Shown: piece by piece, positions 29,901-63,919 of the stretch
Layout: every line of letters starts with the position of its first letter
How positions within the stretch are numbered: position 1 is the stretch's first letter
NCBI RefSeq assembly: GCF_021272185.1
Contig: NZ_JAJSEC010000001.1
Location: 248,001 to 312,000 of the forward strand
Source: Roseivivax sp. GX 12232
GTDB lineage: Bacteria > Pseudomonadota > Alphaproteobacteria > Rhodobacterales > Rhodobacteraceae
Direction: 5' to 3'
Length of the DNA stretch: 64,000 bases
The notes under the pieces: generated by a model
Told to the model about the DNA's origin: nothing
What the model saw: only the letters and a program-made list of their open reading frames with translations
Database searches by the model: none
Program-made: the position numbers and the translations under genes

Positions 29901-29914
29901 CGGACATTTGTTCA
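29901..29914. promoter_or_regulatory. Shared operator-like motif, site 1
   Basis: CGGACA-TT-TGTTCA fits the everted core CGRACW-WW-TGTYCG with one mismatch. It lies between divergent starts, 53 bases from the isochorismatase-like gene and 39 from the glutamine-synthetase-like gene. The outer half-sites are poor. Confidence 0.55.
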
Positions 29915-29953
29915 GAAATGACGGAAGGAGACAAGCGGCGATCAGGAGAGACC

Positions 29954-31255
29954 ATGCCCCTGCCCATCCATATGGCCGGCCTGTCCGACCTGGCCGGACA
30001 GCTGCGCGGCAAGGGCTTCGCGGCCGCCGATCTCGAGGCGCGCTGCCGCTCGGGCGTCGGCTGGACGCCGACCAACGCGCAGATCACCTGTTTCGACGGC
30101 ATCGCGCCCTCGCCCTATGGCTCGACCGGCGACATGCTGCTGCGCCCGGACCCCAAGCGCAGCTTCACCGCGCCGATGCCCGCGGGCCCCGACCTGCGGC
30201 TGACGCTGGGCCATGTCACCGCGCGCGACGGCAGCCCCTGGATGGCCTGCCTGAGCCAGCACCTTTCCGCAGCACTCGCGCGCTTCGAGGCGGCGAGCGG
30301 CCTGAGCGTCATGGCCAGCTTCGAGCATGAGTTCATCCTGCCCGACCACGCCGGGGACAGCGGCTTTTCCCTGGCCGGCTTCCACCGCGCGCAGGGCGCG
30401 CTCGAGGACATGCTCTGGGCGCTGCATGGCGCGGGGCTGCGGCCGGATTCGCTCTTGCGGGAATACGGGCCCGGCCAGTTCGAGGTGACCCTGCCGCCGC
30501 AGCCCGCGCTGCGCGCCGCCGACGAGGCCATCGCACTCCGCGAGATCATCCGCGCCGTGGCCCGCGCCCGCGGCGAGACTGCCAGCTTCACGCCCTGCCC
30601 GGACCCGGAAACGGTGGGCAACGGCGTGCATATCCACCTGAGCTTCTGGGACGCCGAGGGCCATCCCGCGACCTTCGACCCCGAGGGCCCCTGCGAGCTG
30701 AGCCGCATCGCCGGACAGGCCGCCGCCGGAATCGTCGCGCATATGCCCGCGATCTGCGCCCTGACCGCGCCCTCGGTGCCCAGCTACACGCGGCTTCAGC
30801 CGCACCGCTGGAGCGCCTCTTTCGCCAATCTCGCCGTGCAGGACCGCGAGGCGGGGCTGCGCATCTGCCCGACCTCCAGCGACGCGCCGGACAAGCGCGC
30901 GCGGCAGTTCAACTACGAATACCGCGCCGCTGACGCCGCCGCCTCGCCCTGGCTGGCGCTTTCGGCGCTGGTCCATGCCGCCGCCGCGGGCGTCGAGGCC
31001 GGGCTGCCCTGCCCGGAGCCGACCGAGGGCGACCTCTCGGAGATGTCGCCCGAGGCGCTGGCCGAACTGGGCATCCGCCCGCTGCCCCGCAGCCTGCCCG
31101 AGGCGCTCGATCTTCTCGAGACCGCGCCCGAGGTGGCGGGCTGGTATCCCGAGGGCTTCATCGCGCTTTACCTCGACCACAAGCGCTTCGAGGCGGGCGA
31201 GGTCGCCGACCTGCCCGAAGCGGAGATTCTGAAACGCTATGCAGCGGCTTATTGA
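29954..31255 (+). CDS. Glutamine-synthetase-like ligase
   Basis: 433 residues of the GlnA/PuuA superfamily: ATP-dependent joining of glutamate, or a similar acid, to ammonia or an amine. Visible catalytic blocks are ASFEHEFILP (metal Glu), GPGQFEVTLPP, GNGVHIHLSFWD (His) and PSYTRLQPHRWSASFANLAV in place of the usual Gly-Trp-Gly-containing ATP segment. That change makes true glutamine synthesis unlikely; a gamma-glutamylamide synthetase acting on an imported amine is plausible. The start at 29954 has AGGAG five bases upstream; the frame is open to 29846. A polyamine-type transporter follows. Confidence 0.82.
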   Translation: MPLPIHMAGLSDLAGQLRGKGFAAADLEARCRSGVGWTPTNAQITCFDGIAPSPYGSTGDMLLRPDPKRSFTAPMPAGPDLRLTLGHVTARDGSPWMACLSQHLSAALARFEAASGLSVMASFEHEFILPDHAGDSGFSLAGFHRAQGALEDMLWALHGAGLRPDSLLREYGPGQFEVTLPPQPALRAADEAIALREIIRAVARARGETASFTPCPDPETVGNGVHIHLSFWDAEGHPATFDPEGPCELSRIAGQAAAGIVAHMPAICALTAPSVPSYTRLQPHRWSASFANLAVQDREAGLRICPTSSDAPDKRARQFNYEYRAADAAASPWLALSALVHAAAAGVEAGLPCPEPTEGDLSEMSPEALAELGIRPLPRSLPEALDLLETAPEVAGWYPEGFIALYLDHKRFEAGEVADLPEAEILKRYAAAY

Positions 31256-31287
31256 GCCGCCGCGCGGCGCGTCTCCATGCTTGAATT

Positions 31288-31323
31288 TGTCCGCATAACG
31301 ATCAATAGTTCGCTATACGAACA
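31288..31323. promoter_or_regulatory. Shared operator-like motif, site 2 (two full sites)
   Basis: TGTCCG-CATAA-CGATCA (31288-31304) and AGTTCG-CTATA-CGAACA (31307-31323) are two 17-bp palindromes with centres 19 bases apart. The inner halves form CGATCA-AT-AGTTCG. The second touches the ribosome binding site of the downstream binding-protein gene. Confidence 0.75.
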
Positions 31324-31335
31324 AGGAGGATGAAG

Positions 31336-32517
31336 ATGACCGCCCAACGACCCAGACTGCCCCAGACCCTGCGCCGCCCCGGTGCCGGAGGAATGTCCCG
31401 CCGCAGCGTGCTGGGCGGCATGGCCGCCGGCCTCGCCGCAAGCGGCCTGCCCGGCGCCGCACTTGCCCAGGACGACGGCATCGCGCTTCTGACCTGGGAC
31501 GCCTATGCCGACCCCCGCCTGCTCGACATGTGGCGCAGCCAGACCGATGTGCCGATCCGCTACGAGATCCACATCTCGGACCCGACCTCGGTGAACCGCC
31601 TGCGCGCGGGCGAGACCTCGGTCTGGAACTTCATCAACCTCAACAACCCCTGGGCCCGCGAGATCATGTATCCCGAGGATCTGATCTACGCCCTGCCCCG
31701 CGACCGCTTCGAGCCGCTCTATGCCCAGATGTTCGAGAAGTTCGCCATGCCCTACGACTGGGCGCTGTCGAAGGACGGCGAGAACCTCCTCGGCGTGGTG
31801 CAGCGCTTCGAGACCTTCGACTTCGTGGTGAACTCCGACGTGATCTCGCCCGCCATGGCCAAGGACGAAGGCTGGGATCTCTTCAACAACCCCGATTTCG
31901 CCGGGCGCTACGGCATCCTCGCCTATGAGGACTGGAACGTCATGGACATCTGCATGGGCGCGGGCATCCACCCCTTCAAGCCCAAGACCGAGGCCGATTA
32001 CGCCAAGTTCGAGGACACCGCCCGGGCCTGGATCAACAACGCCAAGATGATCACCACCGACTTCGTGCAGCTCAACCTGGCGATGCTCAACGGCGAGATC
32101 GACCTTTACTTCACCGGCGGCACCTATACCGCCAGCTCGGCCCGCGCCGAGGGGGCGACCAATATCTACGCCATCACCCCCAACTCCGGCCCGGCCGACG
32201 GCAAGGGCGGGATCAACTGGATCGAGCTCAACTCCGCCGTGGCCAATCCCGCCGGCAAGGAGGCGACCTTCGACTTCCTGGAATGGATCACCACGCCCGA
32301 CGCCGCCGAGATCGTGGCCCGCGGCAACGGAAACCTGCAGCCGGTGAGCCAGATGGCCCAGGACGAGGTGCTTGGCCGGTTCAGCGCCGACGAGCTGAAC
32401 GCGATCCAGTGGGACGAGTTCGACGAGCGCATCGCCAATGCGGTCGAATTCGACATCGTGCCCGATTACGACCGCCTCTACGACATCTACTCGGCGGCCA
32501 TCCGTGATCGCGGCTGA
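31336..32517 (+). CDS. Polyamine-type ABC transporter substrate-binding protein, Tat-exported
   Basis: 393 residues with a twin-arginine signal (MSRRSVLGGMAAGLAASGL, cleavage near ALA-Q) preceded by about 20 polar residues. The mature part resembles PotD/PotF spermidine/putrescine-binding proteins (LLTWDAYADPRLLDMW, WNFINLNNPWAREIM). Tat export implies folding before transport. The ATG at 31336 lies six bases after AAGGAGG; the ATG at 31330 abuts that site and is less likely. First gene of a four-gene transporter operon, directly behind two operator-like sites. Confidence 0.88.
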   Translation: MTAQRPRLPQTLRRPGAGGMSRRSVLGGMAAGLAASGLPGAALAQDDGIALLTWDAYADPRLLDMWRSQTDVPIRYEIHISDPTSVNRLRAGETSVWNFINLNNPWAREIMYPEDLIYALPRDRFEPLYAQMFEKFAMPYDWALSKDGENLLGVVQRFETFDFVVNSDVISPAMAKDEGWDLFNNPDFAGRYGILAYEDWNVMDICMGAGIHPFKPKTEADYAKFEDTARAWINNAKMITTDFVQLNLAMLNGEIDLYFTGGTYTASSARAEGATNIYAITPNSGPADGKGGINWIELNSAVANPAGKEATFDFLEWITTPDAAEIVARGNGNLQPVSQMAQDEVLGRFSADELNAIQWDEFDERIANAVEFDIVPDYDRLYDIYSAAIRDRG

Positions 32518-32524
32518 CCTCTCG

Positions 32525-33571
32525 ATGACGCAAGACAGCCGACCCGTTCTGGGCCAAGCCGCGCTCAGCCTCCAGGGGCTGAGCCGGTCCTTCGGCTCTC
32601 TCCAGGCGCTTTCCTCGGTGTCTCTCGACATCGAGGAGGGCGAGTTCTTCACGATCGTCGGGCCCTCGGGCTCCGGCAAGACGACGCTGCTGCGCATCCT
32701 CGCGGGGCTCGACCAGCCGACCGAGGGGCAGCTTCTCCTGCGCGGGCGCGACATCACGCGGCTTGCGCCGAACAAGCGCCCGACCGCCATGGTCTTCCAG
32801 TCGCTGGCGCTCTTCGATCACCGCACCGTGGGCGAGAACGTCGGCTTCGCGCTGAAGATGCGCGGCATCGCCAAGGCCAAGCGCGACGCCCGCGCCCGCG
32901 AATTGCTCGAGCTGGTGCGGCTCGGCGCGGAGTATTTCGACAAGCCGGTGACGCAATGCTCGGGCGGCGAGCGGCAGCGCGTGGCCCTGGCCCGCGTCCT
33001 GGCCTCCGAGCCCGAGATCCTGTTCTTCGACGAGCCGCTCTCGGCGCTCGACTACCGGCTGCGCAAGACGCTGGAGGTCGAGCTGCGCGCGCTGCAGAAG
33101 CGCACCGGGCGGACCTTCGTCTACATCACCCACAGCCTCGAAGAGGCCATGGTGATGTCCGACCGCATCGGCATCATGCGCGACGGCCAACTGGTGCAGG
33201 TCGGCAGCCCGGCCGAAATCTACGGCCGCCCGGACAGCCGCTTCGTGGCGAGCTTCATGGGCGAGGTGAACATCCTCAAGGTCGCGGAGGGCCGCCTGCC
33301 CGAGCTGGACCTGCCCCTGCCCGGCACGCCCGACGGCTACGTGGTGCTGCGCCCCGAGGCGCTGCGCCTCGAGGAGGGCACCGAGACCGGCGCGCCCGGC
33401 TTTGCGGCCCGCGTGGCCGAGGTCTTCCGCCTGGGCTCGCGGGTGCAGCTGCACCTCGAAAGCCCCGCCGGGCTGATGATCGCGGAACTGCCCGCCGAGA
33501 CCCAGATCCGCCCCGGCGCCACGGCCCGGGTGAGCTTTGCCCCCGAGGCCGCGCACTGGGTGGCCGAATGA
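32525..33571 (+). CDS. Polyamine-type ABC transporter ATPase
   Basis: 348 residues. Walker A GPSGSGKTT, Q-loop VFQSLALFDH, signature CSGGERQRVALAR, Walker B ILFFDEPLSALD and H-loop ITHSLEEAMV are present, followed by a TOBE-like C-terminal region. It would energise uptake as a homodimer with the two downstream permeases. The ATG at 32525 lies eight bases after the binding-protein stop without a clear ribosome binding site; a GTG at 32504 is the alternative. Its stop overlaps the next ATG (ATGA). Confidence 0.9.
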   Translation: MTQDSRPVLGQAALSLQGLSRSFGSLQALSSVSLDIEEGEFFTIVGPSGSGKTTLLRILAGLDQPTEGQLLLRGRDITRLAPNKRPTAMVFQSLALFDHRTVGENVGFALKMRGIAKAKRDARARELLELVRLGAEYFDKPVTQCSGGERQRVALARVLASEPEILFFDEPLSALDYRLRKTLEVELRALQKRTGRTFVYITHSLEEAMVMSDRIGIMRDGQLVQVGSPAEIYGRPDSRFVASFMGEVNILKVAEGRLPELDLPLPGTPDGYVVLRPEALRLEEGTETGAPGFAARVAEVFRLGSRVQLHLESPAGLMIAELPAETQIRPGATARVSFAPEAAHWVAE

Positions 33572-34413
33572 GCCCGGGGCGCACCGGATATCTCTTCGCC
33601 CTGCCGGTGGCGCTGTTTCTGCTGGCGGGTTTCGCCACGCCCATCGGCATCGTCGCCTGGTACAGCCTGATGGAGCCGCGCACCTTCGCGCTGACCGCCG
33701 AGACGACGCTCACCAACTACCGCGCCGCCTTCACCGAGGGCTACGGCCCGCCGTTCTTCTGGTCGATCACCGGGGCGGTGGCCACGACGCTGGCCTGCGC
33801 GCTCCTGGCCTGGCCCACCGCGAAGATGCTGCACCAGCTCGCCGGGCGCGGCGCGGCGGTGCTGACCGGGCTGATCGCGGTGCCGATCTTCGTCTCCGAA
33901 AGCGTCCGGCTCTTCGGCATGTCGCTGTTCCTCATGCCCGGCGGCGGCATCCTTGCCGGCAGCCTGCGGGCTCTCTTCGACGTCAACATCGGCACGGTGC
34001 TGAACACCAAGCTCGGGGTCTTCCTGGGCATGGTCTACGTGCATTTCCCCTTCATGCTGTTTCCGCTTCTGCTGGGCGTGGCGCTGATCCCGCAGGACCG
34101 GCGCGACGCGGCACGCGACCTCGGCGCCTCGCGCTGGCAGATCCTGCGCGAGGTCGAGCTGCCGCTCGCCATGCCGGGGCTGATCATCGGCGCGCTCCTG
34201 ACCTTCGTCCTCTGCGTCGGCGCCAATGCCGAGGCGGCGATCCTCGGCGGCCAGGCGATCAGCGTGGTGACCCGCGCGATCGAGCAGCGCTTCTCCTACG
34301 CGCAGGATTGGCCCATGGGCGCGGCGCTGACCATGCTAGTGGTCGCGGTGACGGCGCTGGTGGTCTTCCCGGCGCTGGCGCGGATCGACCTCAACAAGCT
34401 CATCCGGAGGTAG
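33568..34413 (+). CDS. Polyamine-type ABC transporter permease 1 (PotB-like)
   Basis: 281 residues with six predicted spans and the EAA loop GVALIPQDRRDAARDLGAS. The N-terminal span (GYLFALPVALFLLAGFATP) and the periplasmic YRAAFTEG region resemble PotB/PotH permeases. It forms the membrane pore with the next gene. The start overlaps the ATPase stop as ATGA. A GGAGG just before its stop serves the next gene, which starts with TTG. Confidence 0.9.
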   Translation: MSPGRTGYLFALPVALFLLAGFATPIGIVAWYSLMEPRTFALTAETTLTNYRAAFTEGYGPPFFWSITGAVATTLACALLAWPTAKMLHQLAGRGAAVLTGLIAVPIFVSESVRLFGMSLFLMPGGGILAGSLRALFDVNIGTVLNTKLGVFLGMVYVHFPFMLFPLLLGVALIPQDRRDAARDLGASRWQILREVELPLAMPGLIIGALLTFVLCVGANAEAAILGGQAISVVTRAIEQRFSYAQDWPMGAALTMLVVAVTALVVFPALARIDLNKLIRR

Positions 34414-34415
34414 CC

Positions 34416-35195
34416 TTGCCCCGACTTCTCCGTTCGCTCTGGCTGACGCTGATCCTGGCGCTCCTTTACATGCCGATCCTCTCGGTGGTGCTGGCGAGCC
34501 TCGCCAACACCCGCTACATGCGCTTCCCGCATCGCACCTGGTCGGTCGGCGCCTATACCGACACCTTTTCCCAGCAGGAGACGCTGACCCTGCACCTGGT
34601 GTCGCTGAAGGTGGCGCTTTGCGTGACGCTGTTTTCGGTGATCCTCGGGGCGCTCGGGGCCATGGCCTTCGCGCGCTACGACTGGCGCGGGCGTTCGATC
34701 TACCAGAAGGCCGTGGTGCTGCCGATCTTCTTTCCGCAGCCGGTGCTGGGGCTGGCGCTCCTGATGTTCTATTCCGCGCTCGGCATCCCGCCCAGCTGGA
34801 AGACCGCGATCTTCGCCCATATGGTCTGGATCCTGCCGATCGTGACCCTTGTGATCTCGATCCGGCTGTTCGGCTACGACCCCGCGCAGGAGGACGCCGC
34901 GCGCGACCTCGGCGCCTCGCGCTGGCAGGTCCTGCGCGAGGTCACCCTGCCCCACCTGGCGCCGGGGCTGATTTCGGGCGGGCTCTTCGCCTTCCTGCTG
35001 TCCTGGTCGAACCTGCCGCTGTCGATCTTCACCACCGGGGCCGACACGACGCTGCCGGAATGGCTCTTCAGCCGGGTCGCGACGAATTACGCGCCGGTGG
35101 TCTCGGCCATCGCGGTGATCGGCACTTTCGCCTCGGTGATCCTGGGCGTGCTGGTGCTGCTGGGGCTGCGGCTGAGCCGCGCCCGCGCGGGCTAG
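34416..35195 (+). CDS. Polyamine-type ABC transporter permease 2 (PotC-like), TTG start
   Basis: 259 residues with six spans and the EAA loop YDPAQEDAARDLGAS. No ATG or GTG lies near the expected start, but TTG at 34416 has GGAGG exactly five bases upstream and gives an N-terminus PRLLRSLWLTLILALL typical of PotC/PotI permeases. Together with permease 1 it completes the importer. Its TAG stop (35193-35195) shares bases with the TAG of the convergent AKR-RidA gene. Confidence 0.88.
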   Translation: MPRLLRSLWLTLILALLYMPILSVVLASLANTRYMRFPHRTWSVGAYTDTFSQQETLTLHLVSLKVALCVTLFSVILGALGAMAFARYDWRGRSIYQKAVVLPIFFPQPVLGLALLMFYSALGIPPSWKTAIFAHMVWILPIVTLVISIRLFGYDPAQEDAARDLGASRWQVLREVTLPHLAPGLISGGLFAFLLSWSNLPLSIFTTGADTTLPEWLFSRVATNYAPVVSAIAVIGTFASVILGVLVLLGLRLSRARAG

Positions 35196-36658
35196 TCCAG
35201 CTCGGCCTCGGCCTCGATCTCGACCAGGTAGTCGCCGATCAGCTCATCCGCGACGATCAGCGTGTTGGCCGGGCGCACCGCGCCGAAGGCCCGCGCATGG
35301 GCCGCCGAGACGCCGGGCCAGTCGGCCTCGCGGGTGAGGTAGATCCGGGTCCGAAGCACGTCCTCTGGCGCGCCGCCAAGCGAGGTGATCGCCCCGGTGA
35401 TCTTGTCGAGGATATAGACCGCCTGCGCCTCGGCGTCGCCCGGAGCCACGGGCGCGCCCGCGGGATCGGTCGCGGTGGTGCCGCTGACCAGGATGCGCTT
35501 GCCCTTGCGGATGGCCCGGGCAAAGCCCGCCTTGGCCTCCCAGACCGAGCCGCTTTCGGCGATTGTGCGCTCGGGCCGTGCCGGCGACGGGCCGGTCGCC
35601 ATGACCGGCGGCAGCGCCGCCATGTGGTGCGACAGGTCCCCCGAGGCGGTCAGGAAGGGCGGCTTGCGGTATTCGTCGCCGCAGTCGCCCGGCACCGGGG
35701 TCAGCGCCTCGGTGGCCTCGGCGATCACCGCGCGGTCCTCGGTGTCGAGGCGCAGCCCCATGAGCCGGGCGTTGTCGGCGCGGTGGCTGTTCTCGCCCAG
35801 CCGCGCGCCGACGATCACGCCCGCCACGGAGGCGTGATCCAGCACCCAGCGGCTCGCCACGTTGGAGACCGAGACGCCGTGCTTGTCGGCCACGCCGCCC
35901 AGCGCCCCCATCAGCGCCTGGAAGCGCGCCCAGCCGCCGGTGGTGTCGATGAAGCGCTTGTATTTCATCCGCGACCAATCGGGGATGTCTTGAGGCTCGG
36001 GCGCGTCGCGCCAGCGGTCCGAGAGGAAGCCGCCGCAAAGCGTGCCGAAGGCCAGAAGGCCCACACCATGCTCCTCGGCGACCGCGCTCAGATCGCCCGC
36101 CGCGCGGCGGTCGAGCAGCGAGAAACAGACCTGGTTCGAGGTGACCTCGATCCCGTGCTTCAGGACCAGCCGCAGGTGCTGGGCGTCGAAATTCGTCAGG
36201 CCGATATGGCCGATCAGCCCTTCCTCGCGCAGCCGCATCAACCCCTCGAGCGCATCGAGGTATTCCGGCGACTGGTATTGCCACCAGTGGAACTGCATGA
36301 CGTCGATCCGGTCCATGTCGAGCCGCGCGAGCGCGCGTTCCACCCCGGCCCGCACGGTGCCGAGGTCCATCGGCCCCGGCTCGGGGCACCATTTGGTCAG
36401 GATCACCGGCGCGGCGCGGCCCTCGGCGGTGAGGATGCGCCGGGCGCGGCCCGCGACGATCTCGGCGCTGCCGTAGTGGTCGGCCATGTCGAAGGTGTCG
36501 AAGCCCTCGCGGGCGTAGTCGGCCAGCGCCTCGGCGGCGGCGTCGAGGTCGTAGGATTTGCCGTCCCGCTCCTGGTCCGCCATCTGCCAGAGACCGGTGA
36601 CGATGCGCGAGACGGAAAGGCCCGAAGCGAGCGGTGTCCGGTCGAGAGAATGGGCCAT
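35192..36658 (-). CDS. Aldo/keto reductase fused to a RidA (YjgF) domain
   Basis: 488 residues. Residues 1 to about 330 form an aldo/keto reductase with the tetrad visible: Asp and Tyr in FDMADHYGSAE, Lys in VILTKWCPE and His in MQFHWWQYQ. Residues from about 365 form a RidA domain (ILVSGTTATDPAGAPV, and the key Arg in LRTRIYLTRE). RidA proteins hydrolyse reactive enamine/imine intermediates, so the fusion could reduce a carbonyl and clear an imine in one amine pathway. The start at 36658 has GGAGG five bases upstream. A shared-motif site lies 16 bases above the start. Confidence 0.88.
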   Translation of the reverse strand: MAHSLDRTPLASGLSVSRIVTGLWQMADQERDGKSYDLDAAAEALADYAREGFDTFDMADHYGSAEIVAGRARRILTAEGRAAPVILTKWCPEPGPMDLGTVRAGVERALARLDMDRIDVMQFHWWQYQSPEYLDALEGLMRLREEGLIGHIGLTNFDAQHLRLVLKHGIEVTSNQVCFSLLDRRAAGDLSAVAEEHGVGLLAFGTLCGGFLSDRWRDAPEPQDIPDWSRMKYKRFIDTTGGWARFQALMGALGGVADKHGVSVSNVASRWVLDHASVAGVIVGARLGENSHRADNARLMGLRLDTEDRAVIAEATEALTPVPGDCGDEYRKPPFLTASGDLSHHMAALPPVMATGPSPARPERTIAESGSVWEAKAGFARAIRKGKRILVSGTTATDPAGAPVAPGDAEAQAVYILDKITGAITSLGGAPEDVLRTRIYLTREADWPGVSAAHARAFGAVRPANTLIVADELIGDYLVEIEAEAELD

Positions 36659-36673
36659 GCGGGCCTCCATTTG

Positions 36674-36687
36674 CGAACTGATGTGCG
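36674..36687. promoter_or_regulatory. Shared operator-like motif, site 3
   Basis: CGAACT-GA-TGTGCG lies 15 bases upstream of the AKR-RidA start. A further TGTTCG...CGGACA pair (36712-36729) follows, with a six-base centre instead of five. Confidence 0.55.
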
Positions 36688-36893
36688 GAAAGCGGTCGGT
36701 TGCGGGATGATTGTTCGTTTCTCCGGACACGTCAACCTCCCTGTCCAACTTGCGGTGGTGCCGGGAATAGCACCGGCTTTTCAGCGCCTTAAGCACCCAC
36801 GCCGCCAGCCACCCAAGCCCAAGCGCCACCGCGCCACCCGGCCCGCCCAAAAAATCAATTGACCGCCCGCCCTGCCTTCGCCAAGCTCACTAG

Positions 36894-36918
36894 CGGACAA
36901 AAGTCCGCATATCGCACA
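36894..36918. promoter_or_regulatory. Shared operator-like motif, site 4
   Basis: CGGACA-AA-AGTCCG is a perfect 14-bp palindrome (36894-36907). It extends as AGTCCG-CATAT-CGCACA (36902-36918), ending 57 bases before the amino-acid-binding protein gene. Confidence 0.7.
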
Positions 36919-36975: not shown

Positions 36976-37782
36976 ATGAAGACCTGGTTCATGGCCGGCG
37001 TCACGGCGCTGGGACTGGCCGTCACGGGCGGCACCGCCGTCCAGGCGAAATCGCTCGAGGACATCCTGTCCGACGGCACCATCCGCATCGGCATCAACCC
37101 CAATTTCCCCAACATGAGCACCCGCAACGACAGCGGCGAATGGGAAGGCTTCGACATCGAGATCGGCACCCGCATCGCCGCGGCGCTTGGCGTCGAGGTC
37201 GAATGGGTGCCCACCGAGACCGCCCAGCGCGTGCCCTTCCTGGTCTCCGACCGGATCGACGTCTCCATGGGCGCGCTGACCCGCAACTCCGAACGCGCCA
37301 AGCTGATCGACTACACGGTGCCGCTGCACACCGAGGTGCTGGCCGTGCTTGCCACCGACAAGATCGAGGGCGACAGCTGGGAAGACTTCAACACCGAGGG
37401 CGTGACGCTCGCCAACATGCGCGGCAACTGGACCGTCGGCTGGATCGAGGAGAACATGCCCGAGGCCGAGCTCGAGCTGGTGGACACGATCGCCGACACC
37501 GTGCGCCTCGTGGCCCAGGGCCGGGCCGATGCCATCGTCGAGAACATCGACTTCTTCATGGGCTTCACCGAGAACTTCGAGGACGTGAACTGGCGCGTCG
37601 TCGAAGAACCGATCTTCGTGGCCTATTGCGCGCTTGGCGTGAGCCAGGGCAACGACAACCTCACCGAGGTGCTGAACATCATCCTCTACGACCTGCACTC
37701 CTCGGGCGCGGTCAATGCCGTCTGGGAAGAGAACTACGGCGCGCCGATGCTGCGCGAAGTGACGCCGGACCCCTGGTTCTGA
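36976..37782 (+). CDS. Polar amino acid-type ABC transporter substrate-binding protein
   Basis: 268 residues, family-3 binding protein with a Sec signal peptide (about 1-24, ending AVQA-K). DGTIRIGINPNFPNMS and EGFDIEIGTRIAAALG match the ligand-contact start of this family, and RIDVSMGALTRNSERAK the conserved middle. It would bind an amino acid or related zwitterion in the periplasm. First gene of a rightward operon; a strong hairpin (37797-37822) separates it from the permease genes, as is common for abundant binding proteins. Confidence 0.9.
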   Translation: MKTWFMAGVTALGLAVTGGTAVQAKSLEDILSDGTIRIGINPNFPNMSTRNDSGEWEGFDIEIGTRIAAALGVEVEWVPTETAQRVPFLVSDRIDVSMGALTRNSERAKLIDYTVPLHTEVLAVLATDKIEGDSWEDFNTEGVTLANMRGNWTVGWIEENMPEAELELVDTIADTVRLVAQGRADAIVENIDFFMGFTENFEDVNWRVVEEPIFVAYCALGVSQGNDNLTEVLNIILYDLHSSGAVNAVWEENYGAPMLREVTPDPWF

Positions 37783-37796
37783 TCCGACACTAAGGG

Positions 37797-37822: not shown

Positions 37823-37841
37823 TCCGCCTCCGAGCAGTGGC

Positions 37842-55478: not shown

Positions 55479-57086
55479 TCAGTCGACGCGGCTGATCTCG
55501 GTGGCCAGCGTGCGCTCGTTGGTGCGCGGCTGGTGCTCGAGGCCCGCGCGCATCGCCCAGTTGTTCACCTGGAAGTGCAGCGGGATGTAGGCGTAGTCGG
55601 CCATGCCGATGCGGATCGCCTCCTGCAGGATGCCGCGCCGGGTGTCGGGGTCGATGGTGCGCTTGGCCAGGACCGAGCGGGCGTCGATCTCGGGGTTGGA
55701 ATAGCGCCCGAAGTTGCCGTTCCCGCCGCCGGTCGCGGCGTTGTAGGTCTCGAGCGTGCCGGAGACCGTATAGGTCGCCTCGCCCGCCACGGTGCCCCAG
55801 CCGGTCATCGACATGGAGAACTCGGGCACGTCGAAGCCCGGCATCGACAGCTCGTCCCCGCGGATCAGCCGCGAGAAGAAGATGTTGCGCGGCATGGCGT
55901 CGACCTCGGTGGTGATGCCCACGCGGCTCCACATCTGCGCCACCGCCTCAAGAATGCGGGCGTCGTTGATGTAGCGGTCGTTCGGACCGTGCAGCGTGAT
56001 GCGGAAGCCCTCGCCGTAGCCGGCCTCCTCGAGCAGCGCCTGCGCCGCCTCGGGGTCATAGGGATCGGCCTCGAGCTCCTCGACGTAGCCGAAGAAGCCC
56101 GGCGGCACGATGTTCTTGGCCGGCAGGGAGGCGCCGCCCATGATCCGGTCGCGGATGGCCTCGCGGTTGACCGCCAGGCTCAGCGCCTTGCGCACGCGCC
56201 AGTCGCGCAGCGGGTTCGGCACCATGACCTCGCCGTCATTGTCGGTGATGAAGGGCTCGACGTGCTTGTAGCCCGGCATCAGGTAGATCAGCCGGTCCGA
56301 GGGGATCGTCGAGACGGTGAAATCGGGATCCTCGCGGAGCTGCGGCAGGTCCACCGTGGGCGGGTAGTCGATGATGTCGACGTCGCCGTTCAGGAGCGCC
56401 GCGAGCCGCGAGGCGTCCTGGGTCACAGGGCGGAAGACGACCTGGTCCCAGGCAACCTCGCCGCCCCACCAGCCGGGGTTCTTCTTAACCGTGACTCGGC
56501 TGCCGGGGCTGTATTCCTCGAAGAGGAAGGGCCCGGTGCCGATGGCCGCCTGGCCGGAGTTGAAATCCACAGATTCCGTGACGCCGCGGGCCGCGTGCTC
56601 GGCCACGATGGGCAGCATGGCGAGGTCCTCGGCGACGGTCGGATAAGGCCCGTCGGTGGTGATATGGATGGTGTAATCATCGATCTTCTCCCAGGACTTC
56701 GAACCCTTGTCGAGCTGGAAGGCCGGCGAGGCGGGCGCGCCGGAGATGCCGCCCTTCAGCCGGTCGAAGGTGAAGATCACGTCGTCGGCGGTGAAGCTTT
56801 CGCCGTCGTGCCAGCGCACGCCCTCGCGCAGCTTGAACTCCCAGGTGGTCTCGTCGAGCGGCTCCCAGGAGACCGCGAGCCCGGGCACCGGCTGCGAGGC
56901 GCTGTCGAGCGCCACGAGCTTCTCGAAGATATGCTCCTGCACCTGCAGGTCGGCGGACAGCTGGGTCCAATGCGGATCGAGGGAACTGGCCTCGGACCGC
57001 ACCCCGATGGTCAGAACGTCTTGCGCTGACAGCGGCGCAGCCGCCAGCAGCGCGGCGCACAGCGCGCCGGGCATCCATGGACGCAT
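55479..57086 (-). CDS. Oligopeptide-type ABC transporter substrate-binding protein, DppA-like (system 2)
   Basis: 535 residues, family-5 binding protein with a Sec signal peptide (about 1-22, cleavage near LSA-Q). Conserved blocks include EASSLDPHWTQLSADLQVQ, LREGVRWHDGESFTADDVIF and GTGPFLFEEYSPGS. The ATG at 57086 has AAGGAG seven bases upstream; the longer frame to 57119 lacks a site. First gene of system 2, in order A-B-C-D-F-M24-SDR-GST, unlike system 1 where A is divergent. A shared-motif site lies 137 bases upstream. Confidence 0.9.
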   Translation of the reverse strand: MRPWMPGALCAALLAAAPLSAQDVLTIGVRSEASSLDPHWTQLSADLQVQEHIFEKLVALDSASQPVPGLAVSWEPLDETTWEFKLREGVRWHDGESFTADDVIFTFDRLKGGISGAPASPAFQLDKGSKSWEKIDDYTIHITTDGPYPTVAEDLAMLPIVAEHAARGVTESVDFNSGQAAIGTGPFLFEEYSPGSRVTVKKNPGWWGGEVAWDQVVFRPVTQDASRLAALLNGDVDIIDYPPTVDLPQLREDPDFTVSTIPSDRLIYLMPGYKHVEPFITDNDGEVMVPNPLRDWRVRKALSLAVNREAIRDRIMGGASLPAKNIVPPGFFGYVEELEADPYDPEAAQALLEEAGYGEGFRITLHGPNDRYINDARILEAVAQMWSRVGITTEVDAMPRNIFFSRLIRGDELSMPGFDVPEFSMSMTGWGTVAGEATYTVSGTLETYNAATGGGNGNFGRYSNPEIDARSVLAKRTIDPDTRRGILQEAIRIGMADYAYIPLHFQVNNWAMRAGLEHQPRTNERTLATEISRVD

Positions 57087-57223
57087 GGAAGGTCTCCTTG
57101 TTGGACAATGGCGGCGCACGGAGGGTGCGGCGCGTCTGATTTCGCGGGGCGGTTCAGCCCGCCCTCTCTCAGTAAAACTTTTTTAATGGACCTCTCAGAT
57201 TCGGTCCAGAGATTTTTACTATA

Positions 57224-57241: not shown

Positions 57242-58690
57242 TTACGCGAGACCGCCGATGCAGGTGTATTTCGTCTCGAGGTAGTCATCGAGGCCCTGCC
57301 AGCCGCCCTCCTTGCCCAGGCCGGACTGTTTCAGCCCGCCGAAAGGCACCTCGGGCGAGACGATCAGCACCTCGTTGATGCCGATCAGCCCGTATTCCAG
57401 ACCGTCCTGCAGCCGGAAGGTCCGCGCGAGGTCGCGGGTATAGGCATAGGCCGCCAGCCCGTATTCGGTGTCATTGGCCAGGCGCAGCGCCTCCTCCTCG
57501 GTCTCGAAGCGGTAGACCGGGGCGACGGGGCCGAAGATCTCCTCGCGGGTGACGCGCATCTCGGGCGTCGCATCGGCGATCACCGTGGGAGCATAGAACA
57601 GCCCGCCGCGGGCGTGGCGCGCGCCGCCGGTCAGCACCCGGCCGCCCGCCGAGACCGCGTCGGCCACCAGCTCCTCGATCTTGGCCAGCGCCTGGGCGTC
57701 GACCATGGGGCCCTGCTCGGCGCCCGGCTCCTGGCCCGGGGCGACCTTCATCGCCGCCGCGCGCTCGGCCAGCCGCGCGACGAAGGCGTCGTAGATGCCC
57801 GCCTGCACGTAGACCCGGTTCGAACAGATGCAGGTCTGCCCGGCGTTGCGGAACTTGGCGATCATCGCGCCTTCGACCGCCGCATCGAGGTCGGCGTCGT
57901 CGAAGACGATGAAGGGCGCGTTGCCGCCCAGCTCCATGGAGACCGTCTTTACCGTGTCGGCGGCGCCGCGGATCAGCTCCTTGCCGATCTCGGTGGAGCC
58001 GGTGAAGGTCAGCTTGCGCACCTCGGGGCTCTCCATGATGGCCTGGGCGATCTTCCGGGCCGAGCCGGTCACGATGTTGACCACGCCGGGCGGGAAGCCC
58101 GCGCGTTCGGCCAGAAGCCCCCAGACAAGCCCGCTGTAGGGCGTGGCCGAGGCCGGTTTCACCACAACGGTGCAGCCCGCCGCCAGCGCCGGGCCGAGCT
58201 TGCGGGCCAGCATCGAGGAAGGAAAGTTCCAGGGCGTGATCGCCGCCACCACGCCGACCGGATGGCGCGTGGTCAGAAGCTTGCGGCCCGGCACCGCCGC
58301 GGGGATCACCTCGCCCCGGGCGCGGCGGACCTCCTCGGCGAACCAAAGGACATATGCCGCCGAGGACAGCACCTCGGCCTTGGCCTCGGCCAGGGGCTTG
58401 CCCTGCTCGGCGGTCAGAAGCGCGGCCAGCGCGTCGGCATGGGCGACGATCTCGCGGTGCAGCGCGCGCATCAGCTCGGCCCGTTCTGTGACGCTTTTCG
58501 CGGCATAGGCGGGGAAGGCGCGATGGGCGGCGGCGATGGCGCGGCGGGTCTCCTCGGTGCCGCTGTTGGGCACGGTGCCGATCACCGCGCCGCTGGCGGG
58601 ATCGGTGACCTCGAGGGTGCCGCCATCCTCGGCGCCGCACCAGCGCCCGTCGATCAGATTGGCCTCGACGCGCAGTTCCGACATCTCCAT
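57242..58690 (-). CDS. NAD(P)-dependent aldehyde dehydrogenase (succinate-semialdehyde dehydrogenase-like)
   Basis: 482 residues. Catalytic Cys in RNAGQTCICSNRVYV, general base Glu in SMELGGNAPFIV, the cofactor segment FTGSTEIGKELI and Asn in ITPWNFPSSMLARK are all present. The closest family I recall is GabD/succinate-semialdehyde dehydrogenase (PFGGLKQSGLGKEGG ending). It would oxidise a semialdehyde to an acid, fitting downstream of an amine oxidase or transaminase. The start at 58690 has GAGG six bases upstream. Shared-motif sites lie both upstream and just past its stop. Confidence 0.88.
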   Translation of the reverse strand: MEMSELRVEANLIDGRWCGAEDGGTLEVTDPASGAVIGTVPNSGTEETRRAIAAAHRAFPAYAAKSVTERAELMRALHREIVAHADALAALLTAEQGKPLAEAKAEVLSSAAYVLWFAEEVRRARGEVIPAAVPGRKLLTTRHPVGVVAAITPWNFPSSMLARKLGPALAAGCTVVVKPASATPYSGLVWGLLAERAGFPPGVVNIVTGSARKIAQAIMESPEVRKLTFTGSTEIGKELIRGAADTVKTVSMELGGNAPFIVFDDADLDAAVEGAMIAKFRNAGQTCICSNRVYVQAGIYDAFVARLAERAAAMKVAPGQEPGAEQGPMVDAQALAKIEELVADAVSAGGRVLTGGARHARGGLFYAPTVIADATPEMRVTREEIFGPVAPVYRFETEEEALRLANDTEYGLAAYAYTRDLARTFRLQDGLEYGLIGINEVLIVSPEVPFGGLKQSGLGKEGGWQGLDDYLETKYTCIGGLA

Positions 58691-58724
58691 CACGCACCTC
58701 ATTTTGCGAAGCAATGCTATTATG

Positions 58725-58785: not shown

Positions 58786-59907
58786 TCACAGTGAGAAGGG
58801 CGTCAGGTCCACCTTGGGCTCTTCGCCCAGCGCCAGGGATGCGATCGCCTCGGAGACCGCGGGCCCGGCGGTGAAGCCCATCCAGGGAAAGAGGTTCAGG
58901 AAAAAGCCCGGCACCTGCGGCACCTCGCCCAGGATCGGGCGCCAGTCGCGGGTGCCGTTCACCATGGCGGCCCAGCTGCGCAGGATCTCTACGCCGGCCA
59001 CCGCGGGCACCAGCCTGGCCGCCAGCGCGAGGTTGCGGATCATCGAGCGGTGATCGACCACCGGGCTGCCGCGCAGCCGCGCGGGCCAGCCGCCGCCGAT
59101 CAGGAAGCCGCCCTCCCTGGCCTGTTTCAGCGTCAGCTTCTCGTCGGTGAAATAGAGAAGCCAGGGCAGGATCGGCGGGCGCCGTTCGGTCACCGCGACC
59201 TGGATGGCATGGGCCTCGATCGGCACCTCGACACCGACCAGCCGCGCCACGTCGGCGGCATGGGCCCCGGCGGCGTTCACCACCTTCTCGGCGCGGATCT
59301 CCCCTGCCGTGGTGGTCAGCGTGAAGCCGCCCTGCCCTGGCGATATCGCGCTGACATGGGCGTCGCGGATGAGCCGGACGCCCGCCTCCACCGCGCGCTT
59401 GGCGAAGAGCGGCGCGACCTTGAAGGGATCGGCCTTGCCCTCGATCGGGCAAAAGGCGCCGCCAGCCATGCCGGGGGCCAGGAAGGGCGCGCGCTCGGCC
59501 AGCTCCGTGGCCGACCAGAGGTCAACCTCGAGCCCCGCCGCCCGCTCGATCCCGGCCTTCACCTCGAGCGCCCGCAGGTCCGCCTCGGAGCCCGCCACCA
59601 TGAGCCCGCCCTTGCGCACCAGCCCCAGGTCGCCGCCCAGCTCCTGCTCGAGCTCGGCCCAGCGGGCGATCGAGGCGCGGAACAGCGGCAGCGTCGCCGA
59701 GAAGCGCCGCGCCCAGTCGGCACCGAGGCTGCGGAAGGGATCAAAGGGGATCTGCGCGTGGATCGAGCCCGCGTTCGACCCCGAGGCCCCGAGGTTCACG
59801 TCGCGCCGCTCGATCAGCGCCGCGCGCGCGCCCGCGCGGGCGGCAAAATAGGCCGTGGCGCTGCCTGCTAGCCCGCCGCCGATGACGGCCAGGTCGAATC
59901 TCGGCAT
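58786..59907 (-). CDS. FAD-dependent oxidoreductase (DAO/glycine oxidase-like)
   Basis: 373 residues. The N-terminal dinucleotide fold DLAVIGGGLAGSATAYFAARAG is seen in parts as VIGGGLAGSATAYF, followed by GASGSNAGSIHAQ, and the C-terminal FPWMGFTAGPAVSEAIA closes the FAD site. Such enzymes oxidise amino acids, N-methylated amino acids or hydroxy acids. With the aldehyde dehydrogenase next downstream in the same direction, oxidative removal of an amine followed by aldehyde oxidation is plausible. Start ATG at 59907, 21 bases from an array of shared-motif sites. Confidence 0.88.
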   Translation of the reverse strand: MPRFDLAVIGGGLAGSATAYFAARAGARAALIERRDVNLGASGSNAGSIHAQIPFDPFRSLGADWARRFSATLPLFRASIARWAELEQELGGDLGLVRKGGLMVAGSEADLRALEVKAGIERAAGLEVDLWSATELAERAPFLAPGMAGGAFCPIEGKADPFKVAPLFAKRAVEAGVRLIRDAHVSAISPGQGGFTLTTTAGEIRAEKVVNAAGAHAADVARLVGVEVPIEAHAIQVAVTERRPPILPWLLYFTDEKLTLKQAREGGFLIGGGWPARLRGSPVVDHRSMIRNLALAARLVPAVAGVEILRSWAAMVNGTRDWRPILGEVPQVPGFFLNLFPWMGFTAGPAVSEAIASLALGEEPKVDLTPFSL

Positions 59908-60002: not shown

Positions 60003-60836
60003 ATGGCCGAACTGCAGGTCGCCGCGAGCACCTTTCCCTTCCTCTATTCCATGTCCGGGCTCGACGCGCTGAAGCATCTGCACGGGCTCGGCTACCGCAA
60101 GTTCGAACAGATGATCTTCCCGCCGCACACCTGGCCCGCCGATATGAGCGGCGACGACCGGCGCGCCTACAAGTCCTGGCTCGACGGCGAGGGCTGCGAG
60201 ATCACCAGCTTCTGCTACCCGCTGATCGACAACAACCCCAACGCCCCGGACCGGCTGATGCGGCAATACACGCTCGACCGCTACTTCGAGGCGGTGGACC
60301 TCTCGGCCGAGCTGAACTGTCCTTATGTGGTGATGATCCCCGGCGTCTACGGCGGGCTGATCGACCCGCCGAAGGCCTGGCTCGACGAGTGGTTCGTGGA
60401 AAGCGCCCAGGCGGTGGTGGCCCATGCCAAGGACACCGGCGTGCGCATCCTTCTGGAGAACGTGCCCTTCACCCACCGCCCCTCGGCCGAGGACATGAAG
60501 GAGCTCTGCGGCATGATCGGCGACATCGGGGTGAACTTCGACGTCTGCAACTCGGTCTACATTCAGGAAGATGCCGCCGCCGCAATCCGCATGCTGGGCG
60601 ACCTGGTCGAGAACGTGCACCTCTCGGACACGCCGGCGGATGTCTTCAAGCACGACAAGCTCGGCACCGGCATCGTCGACGTGAAGCCCTCCTTCGAGGC
60701 GCTGCAGGACATCGGCTACGACAAGATGACCGTGCTCGAGATCATCACCGACGCCAACCTGCCCGGCGTCGACCCCGACGGCGACATCATCGCCAGCCAC
60801 GCCATCCTGGCCGAGGCCGGCTGGGCCGCCCTCTGA
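60003..60836 (+). CDS. Sugar phosphate isomerase/epimerase-like TIM-barrel protein
   Basis: 277 residues of the xylose isomerase-like AP endonuclease-2 fold. Metal ligands are probable in RILLENVPF (Glu), VNFDVCNSVY (Asp), VENVHLSDT (His) and MTVLEIITD (Glu). Relatives include hydroxypyruvate isomerase, myo-inosose dehydratase and tagatose epimerase, all interconverting carbonyl-sugar acids. First gene of a three-gene rightward operon; it starts 30 bases beyond the motif array. No signal peptide. The substrate is unknown. Confidence 0.85.
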   Translation: MAELQVAASTFPFLYSMSGLDALKHLHGLGYRKFEQMIFPPHTWPADMSGDDRRAYKSWLDGEGCEITSFCYPLIDNNPNAPDRLMRQYTLDRYFEAVDLSAELNCPYVVMIPGVYGGLIDPPKAWLDEWFVESAQAVVAHAKDTGVRILLENVPFTHRPSAEDMKELCGMIGDIGVNFDVCNSVYIQEDAAAAIRMLGDLVENVHLSDTPADVFKHDKLGTGIVDVKPSFEALQDIGYDKMTVLEIITDANLPGVDPDGDIIASHAILAEAGWAAL

Positions 60837-60858
60837 TCCCCCCGCGCCGGAGAGAGAC

Positions 60859-61797
60859 ATGAAAGAGTTCCGCGGAAGCTATTCCGTCAACGTCACCCCC
60901 TTCACCGCCGATGGCAGCGCCGTCGACCTCGAGGCGAACCGCCGCTTCCTCGACTGGCAGATCGCCCAGGGCGTGCCGGGGGTGATCCTCCTGGGCACCA
61001 CGGGCGAGTTCCTGACCCTGACCGACGCCGAGCGCGCGACCTATGTCGAGGACAGCGTGGCCCATGTGGCGGGCAGGATCGACGTGCTCGTGGGTGCCTC
61101 CAACGCCCACACGCCCACCGCCGCGCGCTACGCCCGCGAGGCCGAGGCGGCCGGGGCCGACGGGCTGATGATCATCCCGCCCTATTACTACACCCCCACC
61201 GAGGACGAGATCCTGGGCTATTATGACGGCATCACCGCCACCTGCGGGCTGCCGATCATGCTTTACAACAACCCCTTCACCTCCAATGTCGACATGTCCG
61301 CCAAGCTGGTCGGACGGCTGACCCGGACCTTCGACACGGTGCGCTACATCAAGGAAGCCTCGATGGACGTGGCCCGCGTCTACGACATCGTCGAGGAGAC
61401 CGACGGGGTGATGAACGTCTTCGCCGGCGAGCGTATCGTCGAGAGCTTCCTCCTGGGCGCCAAGGGCTACGTGAACCCCTTCGGCAACTACATCCCGCGG
61501 GCCTCCACCCGGATCTGGGAGATGCTCGAGGCCGGCCGGATCGAGGACGCCAAGCGCATCCAGCGCCATATCACCGTGATCGAACACACCATCGCCGAGG
61601 GCCATCCGACCTATGGCCACCAGTGCTACTCCAAGGCGCTGGCGGCGGCGGCGGGCTACCCGCTGGGCGACGTGCGCCCGCCGCTGACGCAGTTCGCCGC
61701 GCTCGGCGCCGAGGGCGAGGCCCGCGCGGCCAAGCTCAAGGGCATCATGGACGAGATGGACCGCCTGATGGACGAACTGGAAAGCAAGGCCGCATGA
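60859..61797 (+). CDS. Dihydrodipicolinate-synthase-family aldolase/dehydratase
   Basis: 312 residues, DapA fold. The Schiff-base Lys is in VRYIKEASMD, the catalytic Tyr in IMLYNNPFTS and the Thr pair in LLGTTGEFLTL. DapA-like enzymes outside lysine synthesis act as N-acetylneuraminate lyase, 2-keto-3-deoxy-sugar aldolase or dehydratases. In this operon it probably cleaves or dehydrates a 2-keto-acid product of the preceding isomerase. It lies 22 bases after the isomerase and overlaps the next start by ATGA. Confidence 0.88.
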   Translation: MKEFRGSYSVNVTPFTADGSAVDLEANRRFLDWQIAQGVPGVILLGTTGEFLTLTDAERATYVEDSVAHVAGRIDVLVGASNAHTPTAARYAREAEAAGADGLMIIPPYYYTPTEDEILGYYDGITATCGLPIMLYNNPFTSNVDMSAKLVGRLTRTFDTVRYIKEASMDVARVYDIVEETDGVMNVFAGERIVESFLLGAKGYVNPFGNYIPRASTRIWEMLEAGRIEDAKRIQRHITVIEHTIAEGHPTYGHQCYSKALAAAAGYPLGDVRPPLTQFAALGAEGEARAAKLKGIMDEMDRLMDELESKAA

Positions 61798-62897
61798 GCG
61801 AACTGCCTCTCTTCACCCCCTTCTCGCTGCGCGGCGTCACCTTCCGCAACCGCGTGGTCATGGCGCCGATGTGCCAATACCAGGCCATCGACGGGCTGCC
61901 CAACGACTGGCACCGCGCCCATCACGGGCGCTATGCCACCGCCGGGCTGGGGGGCGCGATCGTGGAATCGACCGGCATCAGCCCCGAGGGCCGCATCAGC
62001 CCCGGCTGCACCGGGCTTTACAACGACGCCCAGGTCGCGGCCTGGAAGCCGATCACCGCGCTCTACCGGCGCGAGGGCATCCCGGTCTTCGCCCAGATCA
62101 ACCACGCCGGCGGCAAGTCCTCGACCATGCGGCCCTGGGACGGCGGCGGCCCGCTCGATCCCGAAAGCAGCGAGCCGCCCTGGCAGACCTACGCCCCCTC
62201 GGCGGTGCCCGCGCGCGAGGGCTGGCATGTCCCGAAGGCGCTGGAGCTGCCGGAGATCGAGGCGATCGTCGCGGATTTCGCGGCGACCGCGCGGCGGGCG
62301 CTGGCGGCGGGCTTCGACGGCGTGGAGATCCACGGCGCCCATGGCTACCTGCTGCACAGCTTCATGTCGCCCTATTCCAACCGCCGCAGTGACGCCTATG
62401 GCGGCACGCTCGAAGGCCGGATGCGCCTGCCGGTCGAGGTCGCCCGCGCGATCCGCGACGCGGTGCCGGCGGAGACCCCGGTCCTTTACCGCGCCTCCTG
62501 CGTCGATGGCGAGGGCGGCGGGCTGACGCTCGATGACAGCGTGGCGCTCTCGGCGGCGCTGAAGGAGGTTGGCGTCGACCTGCTCGACGCCTCGGGCGGC
62601 GGCATCCCGGCGGGCATGCGGCTTGCCGAACAGAAGCCGGTGCCCGGCTTCCAGGTGCCCTTCGCCGAGCGCATCCGCGCCGAGACCGGCCTGCCGACCA
62701 TGGCGGTGGGCATGATCACCGATCCGGTCATGGCCAATGCGATCGTGGCCGAGGGCAAGGCGGACCTGGTGTCTCTGGCGCGTGGGCTGCTGCGCGATCC
62801 CGCCTGGCCCTATCACGCCGCCGAGGCGCTGGGGCATCCCGAGCCCGCCTCGATCCTGCCGAAGCTTTATGCCTTCTACCTGAAGCTGGCCTCCTGA
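61794..62897 (+). CDS. Old Yellow Enzyme-family NADH:flavin oxidoreductase (YqjM-like)
   Basis: 367 residues, FMN TIM barrel. YqjM-class marks are visible: Cys in VVMAPMCQYQA, QINHAGGKSS, the substrate His pair in GVEIHGAHGYLLHSFMSP and the conserved SNRRSDAYGG; the C-terminal FMN phosphate site is DLVSLARGLLRDP. It reduces activated C=C bonds of enals or enones, or acts as a demethylase-like flavoenzyme. Last gene of the operon, coupled by ATGA. Two strong hairpins follow. Confidence 0.9.
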   Translation: MSELPLFTPFSLRGVTFRNRVVMAPMCQYQAIDGLPNDWHRAHHGRYATAGLGGAIVESTGISPEGRISPGCTGLYNDAQVAAWKPITALYRREGIPVFAQINHAGGKSSTMRPWDGGGPLDPESSEPPWQTYAPSAVPAREGWHVPKALELPEIEAIVADFAATARRALAAGFDGVEIHGAHGYLLHSFMSPYSNRRSDAYGGTLEGRMRLPVEVARAIRDAVPAETPVLYRASCVDGEGGGLTLDDSVALSAALKEVGVDLLDASGGGIPAGMRLAEQKPVPGFQVPFAERIRAETGLPTMAVGMITDPVMANAIVAEGKADLVSLARGLLRDPAWPYHAAEALGHPEPASILPKLYAFYLKLAS

Positions 62898-62948: not shown

Positions 62949-63013
62949 TGTGTGAAGGTGCGGCTTCTGCGCGGGGTGCGCGCGCGCGTGGTCCGCGCGC
63001 CTGCGGAACAGAG

Positions 63014-63046
63014 AGCGCCGGCCCGATGATCCGGGCCGGCGCTTTG
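63014..63046 (+). terminator. Likely terminator of the isomerase-DHDPS-OYE operon
   Basis: AGCGCCGGCCCG (63014-63025) pairs perfectly with CGGGCCGGCGCT (63032-63043) around a six-base loop, followed by only TTG-T. A weak T-tract lowers confidence. Confidence 0.55.
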
Positions 63047-63086
63047 TCATTGGGCCTTTCGGGGGGCGCCTGCCCCCGCGCCCGCC

Positions 63087-63848
63087 TCACCGAATGTAGC
63101 TCGCCCCGTTCACGTCCAGCGTCGCCCCCGAGAGATGCCGGCACCGCCCCGAGAGGCAGAAGGCCGTCAGCGTCGCGATGTCCGAGGGCGGCACGAATTC
63201 CCCCATGACCAGCCGGTCCTCGACCACCGCGCGGCCGCCCTGGCTTTCGGCGAAATCGCGCGACATCTGCGTGTCGACCACGCCCGGCGCGATGATATAG
63301 GTGCCGATCCGGTCGCGCGCATGGCCCGTCGCCACGGTCTGCAGCGCCGCCTTGAAGGCCGCCTTGGAGGCCGCATAGGCGATGGTGCGCGGGTTGGTCA
63401 CGCCCTTCTGCGCGGCCCAGCTCGAGATGCCGACGATCTCGCCGCCGCCGGTCTCGCGGAAGTGCCGCACCGCCAGCCGCAGGAGCCGCGCGGCGGCGAA
63501 GACATTGACCTGGAAGGTCTCGGCCCAGATGCGCTCCCAGGCGTCGTCTTCGTCGTCGATGCCGCCGTCGAAGCGCATCACCGCGGCGTTGTTCACGAAG
63601 CCGTCGAGCCGCCCCACCGCCGCCAGCGTCTCGGCGAAGAGCCGGTCGGCCCCGCCGTCGGCGGCCAGGTCGGCGGAGAGCGCGATCCCCTGCCCCTCGG
63701 GCAGGCCCGCGATGGCCGCCTCGGCGCCGGCGCGGTCGCCACCGTAATGCGCCACCACCCGCGCGCCCTGGGCGCCCAGCTCGCGCGCGATGGCCTGGCC
63801 GATGCCCTTGGAGGCCCCGGTCACCAGTATTGTCTTTCCTGCCAGCAT
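63087..63848 (-). CDS. Short-chain dehydrogenase/reductase
   Basis: 253 residues, classical SDR. Cofactor motif TGASKGIG, NNAAV segment and catalytic Ser-Tyr-Lys in VGISSWAAQKG...AYAASKAAF. His/Tyr-Gly after strand 2 (VVAHYGGDRAG) suggests NADP(H). The C-terminus ends LSGATLDVNGASYIR, as in 3-oxoacyl reductase-like SDRs. It is convergent with the OYE gene and divergent from the partial gene at 63937; a shared-motif site lies 46 bases upstream. Confidence 0.88.
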   Translation of the reverse strand: MLAGKTILVTGASKGIGQAIARELGAQGARVVAHYGGDRAGAEAAIAGLPEGQGIALSADLAADGGADRLFAETLAAVGRLDGFVNNAAVMRFDGGIDDEDDAWERIWAETFQVNVFAAARLLRLAVRHFRETGGGEIVGISSWAAQKGVTNPRTIAYAASKAAFKAALQTVATGHARDRIGTYIIAPGVVDTQMSRDFAESQGGRAVVEDRLVMGEFVPPSDIATLTAFCLSGRCRHLSGATLDVNGASYIR

Positions 63849-63894
63849 GACTCACCCTTTTCCCCTGCGCCTCGGTTGACGGCGACGCATATTT

Positions 63895-63919
63895 CGCACA
63901 AATGTTCACATAACGAACA
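63895..63919. promoter_or_regulatory. Shared operator-like motif, site 9
   Basis: CGCACA-AA-TGTTCA (63895-63908) continues as TGTTCA-CATAA-CGAACA (63903-63919). It sits between the divergent SDR (46 bases) and the gene starting at 63937 (17 bases). Confidence 0.7.

Follow-up and report, generated by a model that had tools for sequence, protein, structure and literature searches.

Operators of IclR-family regulators are built of alternating boxes with the consensus GTNCG-N5-6-CGNAC and an outer third box, and tandem sites are spaced 18-22 nt apart, with most centres at -20 to -80 (Suvorova and Gelfand 2021, PMC8222616). According to the parts of the same survey covered here, the third box is required by PcaU, and 98 of 181 IclR regulogs contain ten or fewer COGs. 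Predicted operators with the same alternating boxes, third box and tandem spacing as these published sites occur in a 64-kb stretch of the Roseivivax sp. GX 12232 genome (4.12 Mb, 38 contigs), C1:248001-312000, which is called the window here and whose positions are counted from its first letter. They belong to an island of 57 kb (C1:277.9-334.7 kb) that extends beyond the window. Judged from sequence, a single PcaR/PcaU/PobR-like IclR repressor encoded at C1:315956-316831 probably governs the predicted operators of about a dozen promoters of this island.

Operator sites and their enrichment

The original prediction had placed a shared motif with 19-bp phasing at nine positions of the window. 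All nine hold the motif, and the sites proved to be three-box arrays, CGNAC-4nt-GTNCG-5nt-CGNAC, in a 19-bp phase. Three perfect boxes are present in few of the home sites; most carry one or more imperfect boxes. The predicted operators and their matrix scores are:

29891..29914, minus strand: operator ahead of a glutamine-synthetase-like gene (GS, start 29954, plus), 18.9 bits
31280..31323, plus strand: tandem four-box operator ahead of a PotD-like gene (start 31336, plus), 18-26 bits
36674..36697, plus strand: weak site at the start of an aldo-keto reductase fused to a RidA-like domain (AKR-RidA), 11.3 bits, the least certain of the nine
36894..36918, plus strand: three-box operator between AKR-RidA (minus) and the SBP3 importer (plus), 30.5 bits
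46236..46278, plus strand: tandem operator between a DppB-like permease gene (minus) and an SBP5 gene (plus, start about 46386), 30.4 bits
57214..57247, minus strand: operator ahead of the second SBP5 importer operon (minus, start about 57086), 23.7 bits
58715..58749, plus strand: operator ahead of an aldehyde dehydrogenase gene (ALDH, minus), 31.1 bits
59929..59972, plus strand: five-box operator between an amine oxidase gene (DAO, minus) and a xylose-isomerase-like gene (plus), 28-37 bits
63885..63919, plus strand: operator between a short-chain dehydrogenase gene (SDR, minus) and a 3-hydroxyacyl-CoA-dehydrogenase-like gene (3HCDH, start 63937, plus), 36.8 bits
Past the window, beginning at C1:316919, 329545, 331813 and 334650: four further matrix clusters

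The matrix was trained on 19 unique sites of three other genomes, with no home site included, although these sites were partly orthologous and the pattern that selected them was derived from home sites. A scan of 143 kb of the home genome only (C1:228001-371000) at a threshold of at least 8 bits yielded 29 matches, all at C1:277.9-334.7 kb and forming 13 clusters, nine in the window and four beyond it. Within the window the matrix recovered the nine site clusters and nothing else. The flanks (85 kb) held no match at this threshold and one at 6 bits, and 30 dinucleotide shuffles of the island in 250-bp blocks gave a mean of 0.47 and a maximum of 2 matches, far from the 29 of the real sequence. 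The matches lie ahead of genes rather than equally in coding DNA, with 36674 as a possible exception.

Pattern searches agreed with the matrix. With up to one mismatch, the window yielded 8 copies of CGRACWWWWGTYCG where 0.16 would be expected, and none of 100 shuffles reached 8. With up to two mismatches, 15 matches stood against 2.5 expected, adding 36674, 63895 and five others (8987, 26291, 28055, 40971 and 58766), an addition close to the chance number. All six copies of the exact core CGNACWWWWGTNCG in the 4.12-Mb genome fall within the island, and the reversed pattern has two copies. In a genome-wide search with a 24-mer (up to 3 mismatches), 8 of 8 matches were located in the island and the reversed control gave 1. 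Counting box chains without a matrix identified 12 exact chains, two of them three-box, in 58 kb of the island; the left flank (49 kb) held a single one and the right flank (36 kb) none. Chance is the probable origin of two of the 12 (C1:316901 and 329843), whose spacers are GC-rich. A motif dispersed over the genome was rejected, as pattern searches of the 4.12 Mb gave no further good site outside the island. A looser 24-base pattern also matches a few GC-rich single sites and a dispersed repeat, which were set aside by sequence; this GC-rich repeat, GTCCGGCGCGCGCCCTCTGGTGCG or a near copy, was found at 13 places of the home genome, e.g., C1:68966, C1:88282 and C33:179363.

That the repeats are mere chance or a dispersed DNA repeat would be suggested by the bare 17-base palindrome, which with two mismatches is at chance level in the window (11 matches against 10.1 expected) and thus no commoner than in shuffles. 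The evidence therefore rests on the extended, phased site. Chance origin was rejected by the matrix test, the shuffles of CGRACWWWWGTYCG and the genome-wide count of CGNACWWWWGTNCG, and together with conservation in other genera these extended-site statistics leave such an explanation almost no probability.

Orthologous promoters of other genomes were compared over positions -260 to +100 relative to the aligned start; this span does not cover the home sites of AcoX and M20. The operator at 36894 was kept in five of five other genomes, that of ALDH at eight of nine other orthologues, the tandem PotD operator in G025, G140 and G250 (3/3), and the operator at 46236, which contains an exact 17-base palindrome, in G002 and G025 (2/2). 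The footprints at 59929, with a -10-like TATACT inside, and at 63885 were each seen in 18 aligned sequences. The GS orthologue of G025 has a counterpart of the 29891 operator. For 57214, a strong site was found in G140 and a weak one in G025, and no counterpart was seen in the orthologous promoter of G002. In all three orthologous regions compared for 36674, the sites at about this position were weaker (9.7, 7.4 and 5.6 bits). Adjoining the first SBP5 operator is a second A/T-rich palindrome, GTAAAAATATTTTAC (46296-46310), also kept in G002 and G025, and half-copies of it flank the second SBP5 operator (57171-57226); it is possibly the site of another regulator.

With gene starts picked by eye, the gap between operator edge and start was 12-57 bp for GS, PotD, AKR-RidA (36674 to the ATG at 36658), SBP3, ALDH, the isomerase, DAO, SDR and 3HCDH, and 107 and 127 bp for the SBP5 genes behind 46255 and 57224, respectively. 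Seven of the nine sites, rather than the eight first claimed, lie within about 60 bases of a start. Past the window, the gaps are 20 bp for the sugar-type importer, 111 bp for the regulator, 3 bp for AcoX, 38 bp for DppA3 and 99 bp for M20. Some sites fall inside the longest open reading frames, whose start codons appear to be placed too early. The start of AKR-RidA is either the ATG at 36658 or a GTG at 36730, and with the latter, site 36674 falls inside the gene.

Candidate regulator and promoter layout

Six IclR_C matches were found in the home genome, and one of these genes lies inside the island on the minus strand (C1:315956-316831), about 4 kb past the window end. It adjoins a 34-bit operator, the third-strongest, and is divergent from the sugar-type importer. 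Its product matches PF09339 (N-terminal IclR helix-turn-helix, HTH) and PF01614 (C-terminal effector domain), both above cut-off. Against TIGR02431 (PcaR/PcaU/PobR) it scores 284.6-284.8 bits, on the line of the 284.75-bit cut-off, and is the sole protein at that cut-off; the next-best IclR protein of the genome reaches 156.5 bits. Among its nearest relatives of solved structure are 2ia2 and 8eju ('Pca regulon'), which are similar in HTH sequence. The protein thus fits the role foreseen in the original prediction, in which one IclR regulator of PcaR/PobR type would control most of the region.

Promoter layout was analysed at the sugar-type importer, 3HCDH, the isomerase, ALDH and SBP3. At all five, the aligned orthologues conserve a TTGC or TTGA element ahead of the operator. 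The conserved TTGC of the sugar-type importer begins 31 nt ahead of the operator in the home sequence, the TTGAC of 3HCDH, kept in most rows, begins about 19 nt ahead, and at SBP3 the operator lies about 35 nt further on from a TTGAC. The isomerase promoter has a conserved TTGA hexamer and, 16 nt further on, TATACT (most rows), which lies in a 5-bp operator spacer and its edge; most ALDH promoters have TTGCC, with TATAC placed as at the isomerase. In all five, the operator lies over or just behind the -10 region, and the regulator is therefore taken to act as a repressor. It would bind the 19-bp-phased multi-box arrays of about a dozen promoters in the 57-kb catabolic island and occlude RNA polymerase, and a pathway intermediate binding its C-terminal domain would lift repression.

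Co-inheritance and weight of the evidence

Thirteen named loci were compared, coming from a search that recovers close relatives only (regulator orthologue 74-85% identical), with an operator called at 12 bits or more. We take nearly all of them, by title and presumed taxonomy, to be Rhodobacteraceae, including an Oricola metagenome-assembled genome (MAG) and an unclassified alphaproteobacterial MAG; two (L046 and L047) are apparently the training genomes G025 and G211. An operator stands between regulator and importer in 13 of 13 loci, ahead of 3HCDH in 11 of the 12 that have this gene, and beside the isomerase in 12 of the 12 that have it. Gene order varies among genomes and the operators mostly remain with their genes. 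They moved along with M20 in L050, with AcoX in G211, and with GS, PotD and SBP3 in G025. Genes without their own site include DppA2 in G002, GS, ALDH and SDR2 in G140, and GS and SDR2 in G250; each follows a gene on the same strand and may belong to its operon.

The family-wide comparison covered 295 genomes with the 24-mer pattern (up to 3 mismatches). In the four genomes (home among them) whose orthologue is at least 83% identical, 8, 8, 8 and 7 matches were counted, and the nine with 54-62% identity have 3, 1, 1, 0, 2, 7, 2, 3 and 3. At least three matches occur in 8 of the 13 genomes with an orthologue of at least 54% (home included) against 6 of 282 others (Fisher 2.7e-9), and with the home genome left out in 7 of 12 against 6 of 282 (Fisher 3.5e-8), in a test that ignores kinship among genomes and with cut-offs set after the counts were known. 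Those six genomes have their matches spread across contigs, except G193, where they are copies of a single sequence, three in number. Among the 282, many carry IclR proteins of lower similarity or yielded none.

It was also considered whether the sites are read by another IclR or GntR protein of the genome rather than by the island neighbour, since six genes of IclR type are present (no search for GntR genes was made). The remaining five IclR proteins reach at most 156.5 bits on TIGR02431, none near the score of the neighbour, and the neighbour is co-inherited with the sites, which makes another regulator very unlikely and sustains the single regulator originally proposed.

Besides the limits of the Fisher test, several points weigh against a single island repressor. 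Fewer than three matches were found in five of the nine genomes with 54-62% orthologues, and the home site C1:331813 (M24b/DppA3) lacks a counterpart at the DppA3 orthologue in three of three genomes compared. An IclR protein of only 37% identity in G113 (G113:C28:1434-2206) adjoins a one-mismatch operator copy, and the motif alone therefore does not name the regulator. Autoregulation is uncertain, since about 110 bp separate the operator from the start of the regulator gene. Repression is suggested by operator position alone, and of the five -10 boxes, those of 3HCDH and SBP3 are poor matches. The best-studied relatives, PcaU and PobR, act as activators.

These last points would fit the same regulator and operators working as in PcaU and PobR, with the protein recruiting polymerase once its inducer is bound, since it groups with PcaR, PcaU and PobR, whose classic members activate. 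The operators in the five promoters cover or lie downstream of the -10 region and not upstream of -35, and the -35-like TTGA/TTGC elements are conserved; activation is accordingly held to be unlikely, though less so than a different regulator. Repression by the island neighbour is preferred. It is possible, if short of probable, that a PcaR-type regulator, elsewhere linked to aromatics, has become the master repressor of a 57-kb regulon of about 45 genes for a nitrogen compound, with some 5-bp A/T spacers doubling as the -10 box.

Island genes and comparison with known systems

The genes of the island within the window are:

29954..31255, plus strand: glutamine-synthetase/gamma-glutamylputrescine-synthetase-like gene (PF00120; NF045547 below cut-off)
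31336..35195, plus strand: polyamine-type ABC importer (PF13416, PF00005, PF08402, PF00528)
35192..36730, minus strand: AKR-RidA, start 36730 or 36658 (PF00248, PF01042)
36976..39924, plus strand: polar amino-acid-type ABC importer (PF00497, PF00528, PF00005)
45151..46215, minus strand: DppB-like permease gene, start uncertain (PF00528)
46386..47975, plus strand: SBP5 oligopeptide-binding protein gene, start by eye (PF00496)
48814..57119, minus strand: second oligopeptide importer operon, with M24 peptidase, SDR and GST
57242..58714, minus strand: aldehyde dehydrogenase, succinate-semialdehyde-dehydrogenase-like (PF00171; TIGR01780 just below cut-off)
58786..59907, minus strand: FAD-dependent amine oxidase (DAO), glycine/sarcosine-oxidase-like (PF01266; 4ysh)
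60003..62897, plus strand: isomerase-like, DHDPS-like and FMN-oxidoreductase genes
63087..63848, minus strand: short-chain dehydrogenase

The gene labels of the original prediction were mostly right; the gene behind 29901 is glutamine-synthetase-like (PF00120) and not an amidase. By domain scans, the island importers are of polyamine, amino-acid, oligopeptide and sugar types. The other genes encode glycine/sarcosine-oxidase-like flavoproteins, dehydrogenases, SDRs, two DHDPS-like lyases, a class-III aminotransferase, M20 and M24 peptidases, AKR-RidA and a GcvPA/GcvPB-like pair. This split pair lies with an ATP-NAD-kinase-domain protein at C1:325458-329739 (L032:14458-18739), and a separate full-length gcvP is present at C1:661361 despite it. 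An HTH-cupin protein inside the island (42000-42812, minus strand), whose architecture we take to be PuuR-like, is a candidate second regulator, with no IclR operator match nearby in the matrix scan.

Of the 48 listed island genes, 44 were covered by the Pfam scan, and no aromatic-ring enzyme was seen among them (no search for pca genes outside the island was made); the same scan led to no assignment of pathway or substrate. The best NCBIfam model of the FMN oxidoreductase is an aromatic-named fusion, matched by the oxidoreductase half only and far below cut-off. Searches of solved structures gave general homologues only or none, and no pathway assignment. A mycosporine-like or opine-like substrate would be no more than a guess. 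The regulon would tie about a dozen operons to one inducible pathway and make the regulator a handle for finding the substrate, and with its sites the use of the same bases by operator and -10 box can be put to the test.

Title-level searches did not find this regulon in the published literature, which is weak evidence of absence. The regulator resembles PcaU and PobR of Acinetobacter and PcaR of Pseudomonas in its TIGR02431 score, on the cut-off, and in an HTH similar to 8eju. It differs from the activators PcaU and PobR in that its site overlaps or follows the -10 region. BhcR (NF045644) is also an IclR protein, and with 130 bits against a cut-off of 350 the island regulator is not of the BhcR group. 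The main-text parts of the IclR survey covered here do not name this orthologous group (PMC8222616). They describe for PcaU, PobR and PcaR a similar operator with an extra third box, and a control of aromatic catabolism (PMC8222616), in apparent contrast to the island genes scanned. Compared with the COG counts given there, the regulon is large for the IclR family and its content looks non-aromatic. The operator architecture is thus already known, while the size of the regulon and its apparently non-aromatic, importer-rich content are unusual.

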